A stretch of 13,707 nucleotides of DNA, taken from positions 1 through 13,707 of the forward strand of contig JAOQAL010000719.1 in NCBI GenBank assembly GCA_025963615.1, written 5' to 3'. Each line of letters begins with the position of its first letter. Position 1 is the stretch's first letter. The DNA is from Chitinophagaceae bacterium. GTDB lineage: Bacteria > Bacteroidota > Bacteroidia > Chitinophagales > Chitinophagaceae. The position numbers were made by a program, and so were the translations under genes. The notes below the pieces were generated by a model, which was not told the DNA's origin, made no database searches, and saw only the letters and a list, made by a program, of their open reading frames with translations. Shown piece after piece: positions 7,962 to 13,707 of this stretch.

Positions 7962-10328
7962 ATGATGAATAAAAAATTCCTTTTAATTATTTGCATTTCG
8001 GGGTCGATGATCGCCGGAAGATCCCAATCCTGCATACCGGAAAAAAACAACCCCAAGATAAAAGTAAAACCGGTTATAGATATAAAAGCTTACGCTTTCA
8101 ATTTAAGGGATGTGCGGCTACTGGATGGCAGCCCGTTCAAAAACGCGATGGACCGGGACGCGGGGTTTTTATTGTCAATCAATGCGGGCCGGTTGCTGCA
8201 TCGTTTTTTTCAGAATGCCGGCCTGCCAACCCAGGGCGATGTGTATGGCGGATGGGAAAGCGAAGGATTGTCCGGTCATACGCTGGGCCATTATCTGTCC
8301 GCCTGTTCCATGATGTATGCTTCAACCGGTGATAAACGGTTTAAAGATAAAGTGGACACTATCGTAAACGAATTGCAACGTTGTCAGCAAGCCAGAAAAA
8401 CTGGCTATATCGGTGCAATACCCAAGGCAGATTCCATTTTTGGAAAATTGGCAAATGGAGAAATAAAATCGGGCGGTTTTGATTTGAATGGGGGATGGAG
8501 CCCCTGGTACACTGTGCATAAGGTCATGGCAGGATTGCTGGATGCCTGGTTGCATGGCAATAATAAGAAAGCATTGACAATAGTAACCGGTATGGCCGAC
8601 TGGACAGAAAATACATTGAAGAATTTATCGCCGGAACAATTGCAGAAAATGCTTCGTTGTGAATATGGCGGCATGAATGATGTGCTGGCTGAATTATACG
8701 CAGTAACAGGAAATAAAAAATACCTCGATCTTTCTTATAAATTTTACGATGATTTCGTAATGGTCCCCTTATCGAAAAAGATCGACCCGATGCCGGGGAA
8801 ACATTCCAATACCAATGTGCCAAAAGCCATTGGCAGCGCTGCACAATATGAACTGGCGGGCAAGCCATCAGATAAAACCATTGCATTGTTTTTCTGGCAA
8901 ACCATGGTGCATCATCATACCTACGTGATAGGTGGGAATAGCAACTATGAATATTGTGGTGAAGAAGACAAACTGAATGACCGGCTGAGCGATAATACCG
9001 CCGAGACCTGCAACACCTATAATATGCTGAAGTTGACAAGGCATTTATTTTCCTGGGACCCGCTCAGCGCTTTGGGCGATTATTATGAAAGGGCCTTGTA
9101 CAATCATATTCTTTCTTCACAAAACCCGGAAACAGGAATGATGTGTTACTTTGTGCCGTTGCGTATGGGTACTCAAAAAGTATTCAGTGATTCGTTCAAT
9201 ACGTTTACCTGCTGTGTCGGCAGCGGTATGGAAAATCATTCTAAATACACGGAAGGAATCTATTATGAAGGAAAAGACGGCAGCCTGTATGTGAATTTAT
9301 TTATTCCGTCTGTACTAACGTGGAGGGATAAAGCTGTCACGGTAAAACAGGAAACAGCTTACCCTGAAAACAGTGCGACTCAATTGACCCTCACCGTCAA
9401 AAAGCCGGTAAAATTTGCAATGAGGATCCGCAAGCCCCTTTGGGCGAGAGATGGATATACAATAAAAATTAATGGAAAGGATTTCGCAACAACAACAGAT
9501 AATGGGTATATAATTATCTACAGGCAATGGGCGGACAAGGATAAACTGGAAATAAATCAACCCATGAGCTTGTATACGGAAAAGATGCCTGATAATCCAA
9601 ACCGGGTAGCGTTTTTATATGGGCCGCTCGTATTGGCCGGGCAATTGGGAAATACGATGCCGGATCCCCTATATGGCGTTCCCGTTCTCCTGACGGATAA
9701 TAAAAATATAAATGACTGGATAAAACCGGTACCCAATAAGGCATTGAGTTTCGAGATGAAAGGGGTGGGAAAACCTTTCGATGTAAAATTTATTCCCTTC
9801 TATAAAACCTATAAAAATTATTATAGTGTTTACTGGGATTATTTCACGAATGCACAATGGGCGGCACGGCAGGAAGAATATGAAAAAGAAATGAAAGAAC
9901 AAAAGGAGATAGAGTTAAGAACGATTGATAATTTCCGTATCGGTGAAATGCAGCCGGAACGCGATCATCACCTCGCCGCAGGCGAAAAATCCTATGTGAG
10001 TGACGCGTTGGGAGTTAATGGAAGAGAAGCAAGGGCTGGAAGTTTTTTTTCTTTTGAAATGAAAGTAGATCCTACCGCTGGAGCGGGAAACAGTTTGTTG
10101 CTTACTTATATTGGGGATGATAAGGACCGCAAATTCGATATCATTGTGAATGGACGGAGAATAGCTACGGAAGAATGGGCTGGTGGCACGACCGGAAAAT
10201 TTTATCACAAAGCTTATGTGTTGCCCGGCGAATTGATTGAACATGCTCAAATAATTACAGTGCGTATTGAAGCGAACTATGATAAAACCGCGGGCCGGAT
10301 CTTTAATGCCAGGATAATTAAGAATTAA
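7962..10328 (+). CDS. Secreted GH127 beta-L-arabinofuranosidase with extra C-terminal domain
   Basis: This 788-residue enzyme is expected to remove beta-L-arabinofuranose from plant glycans, as characterised GH127 (former DUF1680) enzymes do with hydroxyproline-linked or pectic arabinosides. A signal peptide lies in about residues 1-22. The (alpha/alpha)6 domain spans about 40-430 and contains GGWESEGLSGHTLGHYLSA and GEEDKLNDRLSDNTAETC. The zinc-cysteine catalytic set is present: E348 and C350 (AETC), and C417-C418 (TCCVGSGMENH), with C417 the expected nucleophile. Beta-sandwich domains follow (about 440-640), then a domain beginning near FRIGEMQPERDHH (about 655-788) of the type annotated DUF6805 in relatives (recalled). 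ATGATG gives two possible starts; the first is used. Upstream are a palindrome and a leader ORF; a heptad-repeat array begins 15 bp after the stop. The frame is intact. Confidence 0.95.
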   Translation: MMNKKFLLIICISGSMIAGRSQSCIPEKNNPKIKVKPVIDIKAYAFNLRDVRLLDGSPFKNAMDRDAGFLLSINAGRLLHRFFQNAGLPTQGDVYGGWESEGLSGHTLGHYLSACSMMYASTGDKRFKDKVDTIVNELQRCQQARKTGYIGAIPKADSIFGKLANGEIKSGGFDLNGGWSPWYTVHKVMAGLLDAWLHGNNKKALTIVTGMADWTENTLKNLSPEQLQKMLRCEYGGMNDVLAELYAVTGNKKYLDLSYKFYDDFVMVPLSKKIDPMPGKHSNTNVPKAIGSAAQYELAGKPSDKTIALFFWQTMVHHHTYVIGGNSNYEYCGEEDKLNDRLSDNTAETCNTYNMLKLTRHLFSWDPLSALGDYYERALYNHILSSQNPETGMMCYFVPLRMGTQKVFSDSFNTFTCCVGSGMENHSKYTEGIYYEGKDGSLYVNLFIPSVLTWRDKAVTVKQETAYPENSATQLTLTVKKPVKFAMRIRKPLWARDGYTIKINGKDFATTTDNGYIIIYRQWADKDKLEINQPMSLYTEKMPDNPNRVAFLYGPLVLAGQLGNTMPDPLYGVPVLLTDNKNINDWIKPVPNKALSFEMKGVGKPFDVKFIPFYKTYKNYYSVYWDYFTNAQWAARQEEYEKEMKEQKEIELRTIDNFRIGEMQPERDHHLAAGEKSYVSDALGVNGREARAGSFFSFEMKVDPTAGAGNSLLLTYIGDDKDRKFDIIVNGRRIATEEWAGGTTGKFYHKAYVLPGELIEHAQIITVRIEANYDKTAGRIFNARIIKN

Positions 10329-10343
10329 AAGATTCAATGGTTA

Positions 10344-10390
10344 GAGAAAAGCTTCGAGCTATGAGCTGCAAGCTGCAAGCGTCAAGCTGA
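10344..10390 (+). repeat. Heptad repeat array, family A
   Basis: Six heptads lie in register at 10349-10390: AAGCTTC, GAGCTAT, GAGCTGC, AAGCTGC, AAGCGTC, AAGCTGA. They are led by GAGAA. The array starts 15 bp after the GH127 stop and reads in the same sense as the gene. Its first 17 nt match 13643-13659 at 16 positions. Confidence 0.85.
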
Positions 10391-10427
10391 TAAACTACGC
10401 CGCCAGCCGGTTGCAAAACATTAAATT

Positions 10428-12113
10428 ATGAAAGGGATAAATAATTTCTTTTTTATCGTAAGTATGGGTTTGTCTTTTTATTGCCAGGCGCAGGTAGATC
10501 CGAAACCAAACATATTTACCCATGCAGATACATTGCGCGGAAGTATGACTCCCGAACGGGCCTGGTGGAATGTATTGCGGTATGATCTGACAATAAAACC
10601 TGATTATAACAGTAAAACGATCGCCGGGAAAAATAAAATCAGCTATTCCGTAGTGAAGGATAATAAAGGAGTAATGATGCAGCTGGATCTGAAAGAACCA
10701 CTGGAAATTGATAGTATCATTTTAAATGGTCGCAGCAGATTGACCTATACACAGGAAGGGAATGTATGGCATGTGAAGATGCCGGGGCAAAAAAAATATT
10801 CAAAAAATTCCGTAGAGATTTTTTACCAGGGTACCGTACACGAAGCGATCAATCCACCCTGGGATGGTGGATGGATATGGGCGAAAGATTCATTGGGCCG
10901 TCCCTGGATGACGGTTGCCTGTCAGGGGTTAGGTGCTTCCTCATGGTATCCGTGTAAAGATCACCAGAGTGATGAACCGGATCACGGCGCCAGTCTTACC
11001 ATGATAGTTCCTGATACATTGATTGCCATCGCCAATGGAAGACTGCAAGTCAAAAAGGAAAATAATGATGGCACCACTTCTTATAAATGGGCGGTGGTAA
11101 ATCCGATCAGTAATTATTGCATCATACCCTATATCGGGAAATATATCAACTTTAGCGAAGTATATAAGGGAGAAAAAGGGAATCTTGACCTGAATTATTG
11201 GGTACTGGATTATCACCTGGCGAAAGCCAAATCCTACATGCCGCCGGAAGTTCATAATATGCTGAATGCATTTGAACATTGGTTTGGCCCTTATCCTTTT
11301 TATGAAGACGGTTACCAGTTGATTGAGACGTCCCATACCGGAATGGAACATCAAAGCGCCGTATCCTATGGAAACTGGTACAAGCCCGGATACCGGAGCC
11401 GTGACTTGTCGGGCACCGGCTGGGGCATGAAGTGGGATTTTATCATCATTCATGAAAGTGGGCATGAATGGTTTGGCAATAATATTACCACGAAGGACCT
11501 CGCTGATATGTGGGTGCATGAAGGATTTACTAACTATAGTGAAACATTGTTTATTGACTACATTTTTGGTAAAGAGGCTGCCGACGAATACAATGCAGGT
11601 ACCCGGATAGGGATCAAAAATGATAAACCTGTGATTGCCCACTACAATGTAAATGAGAAGGGTAGTGGTGATATGTATCCCAAGGCGGGCAACATGCTGC
11701 ATGCTATCCGCCACGGTCTGGATCATGATGAATTGTTCAGGCAGCTGTTGCAGGGATTAAATAAAACTTTCTACCATCAAACGGTGACCACCCGGCAGAT
11801 AGAAAATTATATTTCGAAAAATACAGGATTTAATTACGGTAAAGTATTTGATCAATATCTAAGAACGATTCAAATACCGGTATTTGAATTTTACATCAGT
11901 AAAAATAAAAAACAGGTATTTTACCGATATACCCATTGCGTAAAAGGGTTCAACCTTCCCTTAACATTAAAGAACAAAGATTCTAAAGTAAAAATCATCC
12001 CTTCAGAACAATGGAAAACGTTAAACCTGGCAGCTAACGATGCCACACTATTTGAAAAATCAGCGATTGAAAAAATGTACTACGTTACGGTCATACAGTC
12101 GCCGGAAAAATAA
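10428..12113 (+). CDS. Secreted M1-family zinc metallopeptidase
   Basis: This 561-residue exported peptidase (signal peptide in about 1-21, ending FYCQAQ) belongs to the gluzincin M1 family, which removes N-terminal amino acids from peptides. The zinc motif HESGH is at 342-346 with third ligand E365 (WVHEGFTNYSE), giving the standard 18-residue spacing. The substrate-binding exopeptidase motif reads TGMEH at 304-308 in place of GxMEN, a variant I recall in Bacteroidota M1 enzymes. Y417 (MYPKAGNMLHAIR) matches the transition-state tyrosine. The N-terminal beta domain covers about 45-250. The protein ends soon after the catalytic domain, with a short C-terminal strand region and no large helical domain. 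The start ATG at 10428 gives a clean signal peptide. It sits between arabinosidase and rhamnose-transporter genes with no obvious functional link. Confidence 0.93.
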   Translation: MKGINNFFFIVSMGLSFYCQAQVDPKPNIFTHADTLRGSMTPERAWWNVLRYDLTIKPDYNSKTIAGKNKISYSVVKDNKGVMMQLDLKEPLEIDSIILNGRSRLTYTQEGNVWHVKMPGQKKYSKNSVEIFYQGTVHEAINPPWDGGWIWAKDSLGRPWMTVACQGLGASSWYPCKDHQSDEPDHGASLTMIVPDTLIAIANGRLQVKKENNDGTTSYKWAVVNPISNYCIIPYIGKYINFSEVYKGEKGNLDLNYWVLDYHLAKAKSYMPPEVHNMLNAFEHWFGPYPFYEDGYQLIETSHTGMEHQSAVSYGNWYKPGYRSRDLSGTGWGMKWDFIIIHESGHEWFGNNITTKDLADMWVHEGFTNYSETLFIDYIFGKEAADEYNAGTRIGIKNDKPVIAHYNVNEKGSGDMYPKAGNMLHAIRHGLDHDELFRQLLQGLNKTFYHQTVTTRQIENYISKNTGFNYGKVFDQYLRTIQIPVFEFYISKNKKQVFYRYTHCVKGFNLPLTLKNKDSKVKIIPSEQWKTLNLAANDATLFEKSAIEKMYYVTVIQSPEK

Positions 12114-12132
12114 TTGAATCAATGAAATGCTC

Positions 12133-12209
12133 GAGCTATGAGGTTTGAGCTGTGAGGTTTGAGCTATGAGGTTTGAGCTGTGAGCTGTGAGCTTCGAGCT
12201 GCAAGCTTC
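12133..12209 (+). repeat. Heptad repeat array, family A (11 units in register)
   Basis: Eleven consecutive 7-nt units fill 12133-12209 exactly. GAGCTAT/GAGGTTT and GAGCTGT/GAGGTTT alternate, making a 28-nt higher-order unit (12133-12160). A second copy starts at 12161 and breaks down after 21 nt, then GAGCTGT, GAGCTGT, GAGCTTC, GAGCTGC and AAGCTTC follow. It starts 19 bp after the M1 peptidase stop, in the gene's sense. Confidence 0.9.
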
Positions 12210-12235
12210 AAGACCTACAGTTCTGAGACTTACTT

Positions 12236-12273
12236 CAGTCTCGCAGCTCACAGCTCGTAGCTTGCAGCTTTCC
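12236..12273 (-). repeat. Inverted family A module ending in GAGACTG
   Basis: On the minus strand this reads GGA, then AAGCTGC, AAGCTAC, GAGCTGT, GAGCTGC, GAGACTG. It matches the plus-strand module at 13670-13707 at 35 of 38 positions. It is inverted relative to the array at 12133-12209; for example 12182-12193 and 12245-12256 are perfect 12-nt complements, so the transcript can form a stem-loop. Confidence 0.85.
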
Positions 12274-12282
12274 TATTTCCCC

Positions 12283-12477
12283 ATCCAGCATCTCCATCCT
12301 CCCTGCATCTCGCCTCCAGCGCCCCATCATCCAGTATCCAACATCCAGTATCCAGTATCCACCATCCAGCCATCCCGCATCCCGCCTCCAGCGCCACATC
12401 ATCCAGTATCCAACATCCAGTATCCACCATCCAACATCCATCATCCAGCATCCATCATCTCGCATCCAGCATCCCCC
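12283..12477. repeat. Heptad repeat array, family B (long)
   Basis: The consensus unit is ATCCAGY with variants ATCCAAC, ATCCACC, ATCCATC and ATCCCGC. Six units are in register at 12329-12370 and eleven at 12401-12477. The array contains a 44-nt direct duplication, 12311-12354 and 12383-12426, identical at 43 positions and offset by 72 nt. The same unit occurs at 56-83. Confidence 0.9.
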
Positions 12478-12478
12478 T

Positions 12479-12496
12479 CATGACAGACCATGACAG
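12479..12496 (+). promoter_or_regulatory. Two CATGACAG direct repeats upstream of rhaT
   Basis: CATGACAG occurs at 12479-12486 and again at 12489-12496, a centre spacing of 10 bp (one helical turn), about 70 bp before the rhaT ATG. Such spacing fits half-sites of an AraC-family activator, the usual regulator type for rhamnose genes. This is inference only, and chance or repeat decay remains possible. Confidence 0.25.
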
Positions 12497-12563
12497 TTAT
12501 AACTTTCCCGGAGTATATTTTTAGGACGGGTTTTTGGTCGCCACAATGAGAAATTAAAAGAGC

Positions 12564-13640
12564 ATGCAGGTAATTTCAGGAATCTTTTTACACTTCATCG
12601 GTGGCTTTGCCTCAGGCAGTTTTTATATACCTTATAAAAAGGTAAAAGGATGGAGTTGGGAAAGTTTTTGGATCATCGGTGGCTTATTTTCATGGCTTAT
12701 TGTCCCTCCCATTGCAGCCTGGTTAACGATTCCGGCATACGCGGATATTATCCGTAATGCGCCGGGAACTGTAATCGGATCTACATTTTTTATGGGTTTA
12801 TTATGGGGCATTGGCGGTTTAACCTACGGTTTGGGGGTGCGGTACCTGGGCGTTTCGCTGGGTAGCTCTATTATACTTGGATTGTGTTCGGTATTCGGAG
12901 CACTAATTCCATCAGTATATTATTATTTTAATCCAGCAAAGGGAAAAGATACCATTGCTGATTTGTCCGGTACACACTGGGGCTTATTGGTCCTATTGGG
13001 ATTAGTAGTTTGCATAATCGGTATCATAATATGCGGCAAGGCCGGTTCGATGAAAGACAAGGAGTTGGGCGAAAGCCATAGGGACGCATCCGGCAGTGAA
13101 TTCCGTTTGGTAAAGGGGTTGATTCTGGCAATTATTTCCGGTGTGTTAAGCGCCTGTTTCAGTTTCGGTATTGAAGCGGGAAGCAGTATGGGCGCTACAG
13201 CCAATGAAATATGGAAGGCTGCAAACCCGGGACAGGGCGAGTTTTTATTCCGTAATAATGTCATCTTCGTTGTGATTCTCTGGGGCGGACTCACAACAAA
13301 TTTTATATGGTGTATGATTTTAAATGCAAAGAATAAGACTTTTGGAGATTACACGAATAAAAGATCGCCCCTGCTTAAAAATTATCTATTGTGCGCATTG
13401 GGCGGCACCACGTGGTTTCTTCAGTTTTTCTTTTATGGAATGGGAGAAAGTAAAATGGGCAATGGGGCGAGCTCGTGGATACTACATATGTCGTTTATCA
13501 TTTTAGTAGCCAATATGTGGGGTATTGCCTTAAAAGAATGGAAAGGGGTGAGTAAAAGAACAAGAACGACCATTATAGCAGGCATTGGTACAATTATATT
13601 ATCGGTATTGATAGTAGGGTATGGGAATTCATTGAAGTAA
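12564..13640 (+). CDS. rhaT: L-rhamnose/proton symporter RhaT
   Basis: This 358-residue inner-membrane transporter has about ten hydrophobic segments and is expected to import L-rhamnose with a proton. It matches the Escherichia coli RhaT sequence as I recall it at several blocks: FYIPYKKVKGWSWE (20-33), LWGIGGLTYGLGVRYLGVS (80-98), an FxLxKGLxLAxxSGxxSA-like block near 185-200, and LHMSF (307-311) followed by LKEW. Length is near that of the E. coli protein (344). The ATG at 12564 lies 9-10 nt after an AAAAGAG purine run, and the N-terminus aligns with the known family start. It is separated from the M1 gene by 450 bp of repeats, so it probably has its own promoter. A family A repeat array starts directly after its TAA. 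Rhamnose catabolic genes would be expected further right. Confidence 0.93.
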   Translation: MQVISGIFLHFIGGFASGSFYIPYKKVKGWSWESFWIIGGLFSWLIVPPIAAWLTIPAYADIIRNAPGTVIGSTFFMGLLWGIGGLTYGLGVRYLGVSLGSSIILGLCSVFGALIPSVYYYFNPAKGKDTIADLSGTHWGLLVLLGLVVCIIGIIICGKAGSMKDKELGESHRDASGSEFRLVKGLILAIISGVLSACFSFGIEAGSSMGATANEIWKAANPGQGEFLFRNNVIFVVILWGGLTTNFIWCMILNAKNKTFGDYTNKRSPLLKNYLLCALGGTTWFLQFFFYGMGESKMGNGASSWILHMSFIILVANMWGIALKEWKGVSKRTRTTIIAGIGTIILSVLIVGYGNSLK

Positions 13641-13707
13641 CTGAGGAAAGCTTCGAGCTGCGAGACTGAGGAAAGCTGCAAGCTGCAAGCTATGAGCTGC
13701 GAGACTG
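13641..13707 (+). repeat. Heptad repeat array, family A (runs off the window)
   Basis: The array abuts the rhaT stop codon. CTGAGGA (13641-13647) leads into AAGCTTC, GAGCTGC, GAGACTG (13648-13668), a junction AGGA (13669-13672), then AAGCTGC, AAGCTGC, AAGCTAT, GAGCTGC, GAGACTG (13673-13707). CTGAGGAAAGC occurs at both 13641-13651 and 13666-13676, showing two modules joined head to tail. The right end is cut by the window. Confidence 0.88.

Follow-up and report, generated by a model that had tools for sequence, protein, structure and literature searches.

The analysed window is the whole of contig C747 (13,707 nt), part of a fragmented Chitinophagaceae assembly (835 contigs, 4.78 Mb, 79% complete). 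Its last gene, rhaT (12564-13640, plus strand), encodes an L-rhamnose/proton symporter and provides the gene context of the repeats described here. Three bases past the rhaT stop codon begins a first partial copy of a heptad-bearing element, represented by its left arm (13644-13668, plus strand; match to our element model at 13648-13679). This arm consists of the edge AGGAAAGC, two heptads, AAGCTTC (13648-13654) and GAGCTGC (13655-13661), and GAGACTG (13662-13668) at the boundary of arm and core, and the AGGA junction follows at 13669-13672. These coordinates bear out the sequence-only reading of the window, which had described two RAGCTNY modules after rhaT, ending in GAGACTG and joined by AGGA. 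The second module (13670-13707, plus strand; model match 13681-13707) is the left arm of another copy, and it is truncated at the contig end because the window comprises the entire contig.

A complete element lies upstream in minus orientation at 12133-12273 (model match 12189-12262, minus strand, 79.2 bits). Read on that strand, it consists of a left arm (12243-12273), a 34-nt core (12209-12242) with the sequence GAGACTGAAGTAAGTCTCAGAACTGTAGGTCTTG, and inverted right-arm heptads at about 12133-12208. Comparison of 13670-13707 with the minus strand at 12236-12273 reproduced the similarity reported earlier, 35 of 38 positions being identical; for 200 copies of the window generated by a first-order Markov model, the same 38-mer matched at 25 positions at best. 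The minus-strand copy had been taken for a dispersed module; the opposite orientation is correct, but the match belongs to one complete larger element. A heptad arm without a core is located at 10349-10388 (plus strand), 20 bp past the stop codon of an ORF ending at 10328. In total, two-heptad steps of the form RAGCTNYRAGCTNY occur 14 times in the window versus 0.01 expected. A second heptad family, (ATCCANN)n, is present at 12324-12474 and 56-83; it yields 172 three-unit matches in the source genome and none for the control pattern, and no inverted arms were noticed for it in the window.

C747 ends in the same 21 bases with which contig C820 (locus L081) begins, and C820 runs on through further arm and core copies into a gene matching rhaD, the bifunctional rhamnulose-1-phosphate aldolase/dehydrogenase. 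The two contigs are probably adjacent, as suggested by this repeat-borne overlap and by the gene order in relatives. In both same-genus relatives, G001 and G002, the rhaT-rhaD gap is short and free of the element: the rhaD protein match adjoins rhaT in G002, and the same gene follows rhaT in G001, as judged by reading. As a dispersed repeat, the element would break assemblies of its own genome, and the window ends inside a copy.

The search for heptad runs and the GAGACT junction proposed in the sequence-only reading was carried out over the whole genome. It returned 230 three-heptad runs (1 for the control pattern) and 78 arm-GAGACT junctions (0 for the control), so the arrays are neither confined to the window nor devoid of shared edges and a shared end heptad. 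The recurring unit is an imperfect palindrome of about 90-110 bp, composed of an edge (A)GAAAGC, mostly four RAGCTNY heptads, a 34-nt core with the consensus GAGACTGAAGTAAGTTACnGAACTATAGGTCTYG, and inverted heptads that often end near GCTTTTCTT. GAGACTG marks the boundary of arm and core, and the next left arm has AGGA/GGAAAG as its outer edge. With this structure, the proposal that each module is a defined element holds for the recurrence but not for the module as a whole unit, which is only half an element; similarly, GAGACTG recurs as a junction but is not terminal, as the arm meets the conserved core there.

The cores were collected from 52 stretches around heptad runs among the matches listed, a part of all heptad runs, and copies were picked only if AGCT lay close to one or both sides. 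The core search gave 38 rows. A palindromic copy in L052 had been read in both directions, and removal of its reverse reading leaves 37 whole cores (34 of them in alignment A1 and 28 in alignment A2). By a mechanical count, 35 of the 37 have at least two of three heptads on both sides; this number includes the first copy in L058, whose right-hand heptads are really the left arm of the next copy. The core is exactly 34 nt long in 34 copies, its positions are on average 10.5% non-consensus, and at least 31 exact core matches are present in the source genome. Copies occur in both orientations. Some loci demonstrate partial tandem expansion: in L058 and L066, the left arm and core recur ahead of a single right arm, and in L079 a single left arm is followed by repeats of core and right arm at a spacing of 55.

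The 37 copies fold more stably than their dinucleotide shuffles, with mean z-scores of -4.0 (33 of 37 copies below -2) on one strand and -3.9 (29 of 37) on the other. Among the 34 aligned copies, the AGCT positions are 0.07 non-consensus versus 0.29 for the other arm positions (p=1.6e-5 over positions), AGCT being in part selected for by the choice of copies. In the source genome, the arms of the same copy pair no better than arms taken across copies (-29.8 vs -30.5), and 1756 of 2000 arm shuffles were as good as the observed arrangement, so arm-to-arm covariation was not found here and lends no such support to a selected RNA fold. Since AGCT is self-complementary, the pairing follows from the heptad design itself.

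We analyzed the position of 61 heptad clusters in the 52 stretches with respect to genes. Stop-side distances are at most 20 bp in 40 of 59 cases (5 overlaps), and distances to predicted starts are that short in 4 of 49 (2 overlaps). Where both flanks of the gap are known and one or both are stop flanks, 29 of 42 clusters are within 20 bp of a stop, versus 39% under random placement; of the clusters between two stop codons, 7 of 12 have both stops within 20 bp. One of the 61 clusters is contained in a called ORF. Relative to co-directional genes, 5 elements have the same and 15 the opposite orientation, while 7 lie in convergent and 3 in divergent gaps, numbers too small to lean on. In other genomes of the family (31 clusters), hairpins tend to fill the whole gap and are within 20 bp of a stop in 22 of 26 cases and of a start in 18 of 26; since hairpins elsewhere are equally near to starts, the stop preference holds for the source genome alone. 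In G109, from which 400 kb were sampled at even steps, heptad runs were found in 7 of 209 gaps, with no concentration in convergent gaps (1 of 39).

The model of arms and core scored up to 1.1e-24 in the source genome, and no other among the 294 family genomes was comparable: the next best match, 3.8e-9 in G001, has a different core. At least 33 of the 294 genomes, the source included, have a match at E<=0.001; all counts of this survey are lower bounds, at most 16 candidates having been scored per genome. The copies read in other genomes have the same arms and not the same core. The model's top match over 822,548 bases of G002 reached 21.3 bits, versus 88.3 in the source genome. A core search within the genus found no exact match in either relative, with two matches at one mismatch in G001 and three in G002; with two mismatches the search did no better than its control, and only matches with 0-1 mismatch are informative. 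Of 166 flanking-gene queries, 31 had a match of at least 45% identity in the same bases of G002, and four gaps were read across there. Besides rhaT-rhaD, the L048 (divergent) and L070 gaps are element-free and carry other sequence instead, and in the L046 gap the same stop codon is followed by short, degenerate heptads; in this small comparison, the element is missing from three of four gaps. The earlier suggestion of dispersal beyond local slippage is upheld by these empty gaps together with the genome-wide recurrence of junction, core and approximate edges.

Beyond the family survey, RAGCTNY runs were detected in 11 of 296 genomes of a phylum sample, the source included. Heptads with GAGAC were found in 32 stretches of named genomes from many phyla, near records of the source genome possibly being excluded; Maribellus, Chitinophaga, Ferruginibacter, Pseudomonas and Acidobacteria are among them, and some of the stretches have inverted heptads close by. 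The RAGCTNY consensus recurs in unrelated phyla, with perfect or almost perfect arrays in Halomonas, a Deltaproteobacteria MAG, Enteroscipio and Streptomyces (L117, L119, L121, L141). Plasmids and phages gave no match to one 121-base copy, and viral contigs gave none to one junction-core pattern.

The gap between rpsQ and rplN offered a single position that could be followed across Chitinophagaceae. The rplN gene is present in 38 of 40 family genomes, and 30 loci were examined upstream of it (the reading covered 30 gaps from 31 loci, and the pairing tests 32 gaps from 33 loci). It was not found in the 79% complete source assembly, and our guess is that repeats in the operon gaps may have broken the assembly. 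The gap often carries a heptad hairpin, RAGCTNY-like in some genera and built of ATTCGTA, ATTCAAC or ATTCATA in others, and in several genera it has no heptads. In 114 gaps near rplN from 33 family loci, the density of recurring 4-mers is 48.6 per kb at lag 7, versus 3-9 at the majority of lags other than multiples of 7; lag 8 reaches 24.4 and lag 16 reaches 12.9 per kb, and some arrays mix 7 and 8. Three or more recurrences at lag 7 were observed in 47 of the 114 gaps, and at lag 8 in 24. In other Bacteroidota (27 loci), lag 7 stands at 13.1 per kb and in 3 of 33 gaps, a gap count no higher than for lags 5 or 8.

The two halves of the heptad-bearing rpsQ-rplN gaps pair at -21.2 kcal/mol versus -12.9 with the partner reversed (p=1.6e-4, n=20), and the 12 gaps without heptads showed no significant difference in half-pairing (p=0.18). 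Halves swapped between genomes were as good in none of 5000 trials for all 32 gaps, in none of 5000 for the 20 heptad gaps, and in 44 of 5000 for the 12 gaps without heptads. Within subsets, same-genome halves were not better than swapped ones (601 of 5000 for 15 AGCT gaps, 438 of 5000 for 5 gaps with other heptads). The two arms of these hairpins therefore seem to share the unit word, and finer covariation was not seen.

Several known classes of repeats were compared with the element. The simple heptanucleotide repeat (LSSR/STRR) is ruled out by the conserved core and the inverted second arm. Cyanobacterial STRRs are tandem heptanucleotides, as in the element's arms, and form simple direct repeats. 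They had been named earlier as the closest concept, but the inverted second arm and the ability to form a hairpin make the Geobacter elements and REP/REPIN sequences nearer precedents. With REPs it has in common many extragenic copies (78 junctions, one of 61 clusters inside a called ORF). The unit is not a palindrome of 20-40 bp, its length being about 90-110 bp with heptad arms, and the REP tag GTAG/CGTC is not constant: GTAG occurs in 14, CTAC in 14, CGTC in 1 and GACG in 0 of 37 slices, and the tag is absent from the consensus. As to a link with RAYT or a REPtron, the 79% complete assembly contains four Y1_Tnp genes, with no heptads in their 2.1-3.3 kb loci. No target-site duplication was apparent, the longest common flanking word being 3.14 versus 3.06 in shuffled pairs, and fuzzy edges could hide a short one. 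For the comparison with MITEs, the edges are roughly inverted (GAAAGCTGC / GAAGCTTTTC), and the search for an autonomous partner covered the Y1_Tnp genes. Eight loci (24,646 bases) gave no Rfam match at the gathering score.

The element itself was not found described in the open-access literature searched. Dispersed heptad elements are already in print for Geobacter: according to the accessible part of the report, G. metallireducens has 49 elements of four heptanucleotide repeats with the consensus GGACCGG, and a class 3 of 16 sites, 15 of which are five tandem repeats with the consensus MTYCTGA, depicted as two strands with a connecting loop (PMC2700814). Like the present element, they are dispersed, multicopy and made of tandem 7-mers, but the 7-mers and the phylum are different, and that part of the text mentions neither a 34-nt core nor stop adjacency (PMC2700814). 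REPs and REPINs are presented in the accessible text as short multicopy extragenic hairpins, often just downstream of genes, REPINs being inverted pairs around a spacer (PMC3733652, PMC3116915). Those features are common to our element, which differs in having no constant GTAG/CGTC tag, no RAYT neighbour found, variable heptad arms and a conserved core. The TAACTGA heptamers of Beggiatoaceae, Cyanobacteria and some Bacteroidetes are likewise intergenic and tandem, some of them in ribosomal protein operons by the section headings of the publication; they are direct repeats of one unit (one indirect), mostly before start codons in the main species, and, unlike our element, have no common core in the accessible description (PMC4679880). 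Finally, the GGGAATC/GGGGAYT heptads of Xanthomonas and Nostoc are strongly over-represented intergenically, and in two related species most of them occupy corresponding intergenic positions while differing in length and sequence; they are of the G-quadruplex type, again with no common core in the accessible text (PMC4692102).

Taken together, we favor, with a probability of roughly 0.7, a lineage-specific dispersed hairpin repeat of the REP/REPIN-like type, in which two RAGCTNY arms surround a conserved 34-nt core. Independent replication slippage could instead have produced plain heptanucleotide repeats at each site, their likeness reflecting a common mutational bias. In many bacteria, heptads are reported to be more frequent than any other long simple repeats (Mrazek 2007, cited in the accessible parts of PMC4679880 and PMC4692102), RAGCTNY runs occur in scattered phyla, and other 7-mers in the family show the same period (48.6 per kb at lag 7). 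However, independent slippage would produce neither one 34-nt core with the same junction at dozens of loci nor inverted arms, and for the source genome this explanation, to which we assign little weight, is largely refuted by the common core; slippage is likely the way in which arms grow and shrink. A regulator that binds DNA or RNA and recognises AGCT once per 7 bases, with the arrays as its binding sites, seems similarly improbable. AGCT is held while flanking arm positions drift, the arms are not matched to each other, and comparable Geobacter heptad sites are annotated as predicted binding sites of a global regulator in the available part of that report (PMC2700814). Against this, the same gap is occupied by quite unlike 7-mers in other members of the family (ATTCGTA, ATTCAAC, ATTCATA). 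Location after stop codons is also unusual for a regulator of initiation.

Somewhat less improbable, and still unlikely in our view, are bidirectional intrinsic terminators ending the transcription of the genes whose stops they abut. Such a role would agree with the stop-codon adjacency, including the 7 of 12 stop-stop clusters close to both stops, with the strong folding on both strands, with pyrimidine-rich right edges such as TTTTCTT, and with a Pseudomonas match in which, as read by eye, heptads in a hairpin are followed by a T run. Nevertheless, no intrinsic terminator with a G+C-rich stem and a T run is present at the elements within the window: the scan of its 10300-13707 part yielded 4 sites versus 3.4 expected, none of them on an element. 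Over the six positions that follow the last AGCT, T makes up only 0.36-0.62 against a background of 0.29, the composite copy sits between rhaT and rhaD, and in other genomes hairpins fill gaps inside ribosomal operons.

Under the preferred reading of a dispersed hairpin repeat, each copy would form a hairpin, either in DNA that is single-stranded or towards the 3' end of an mRNA, and its arms would gain and lose length in 7-nt steps by slippage. The hairpin would be copied to new sites by machinery acting in trans, and tolerance of a 3' hairpin past stop codons would explain why the element persists there. Movement in trans by a transposase is a tentative suggestion, with the odds leaning against it, and a selected RNA-level role in the source genome is proposed with the same reserve. 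Such a role at the mRNA 3' end, suggested by position and foldability, might consist in shielding that end or in loosening the coupling to the next gene, here of rhaT from rhaD. If the dispersed-repeat reading is right, the element would be a tractable system for asking why 7-nt units dominate the long simple repeats of bacteria and how gene-end hairpins arise and are renewed.

A broader, more speculative possibility, which we hold to be rather doubtful, is that Chitinophagaceae and scattered other bacteria have an undescribed class of intergenic hairpins with arms of 7-letter units, in which the word is lineage-specific and the same in both arms, and the gap, for example rpsQ-rplN, is kept; in the genome studied here, one such hairpin would have gained a fixed core and become a mobile repeat. 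If so, a copying process with a 7-nt step would build and rewrite hairpins at gene ends. The rpsQ-rplN gap is a ready comparative series, with one hairpin position occupied by different 7-mers.

Other repeats were seen next to the heptad hairpins. A GTACAAGAGTGCGACGCAAC-like sequence frames or adjoins hairpins in G172 (L176-L179) and G165 (L161), with forms in G002 (L242, L267), and may mark a composite mobile element. Several elements of the source genome adjoin a second repeat, CCCGGGGTCTGCCCCGAAGAAGC or close forms of it (L033, L052, L060), which in L052 and L060 is duplicated along with the elements. In G021, at about 910-1000 of L091, a heptad hairpin is apparently in frame, as judged by reading, inside a gene that we take to encode a cysteinyl-tRNA synthetase. 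Finally, positions 2036-2349 of L031 contain two head-to-tail units of ~161 bp, in which the element lies inside an outer CACATAG...CTATGTG inverted repeat.
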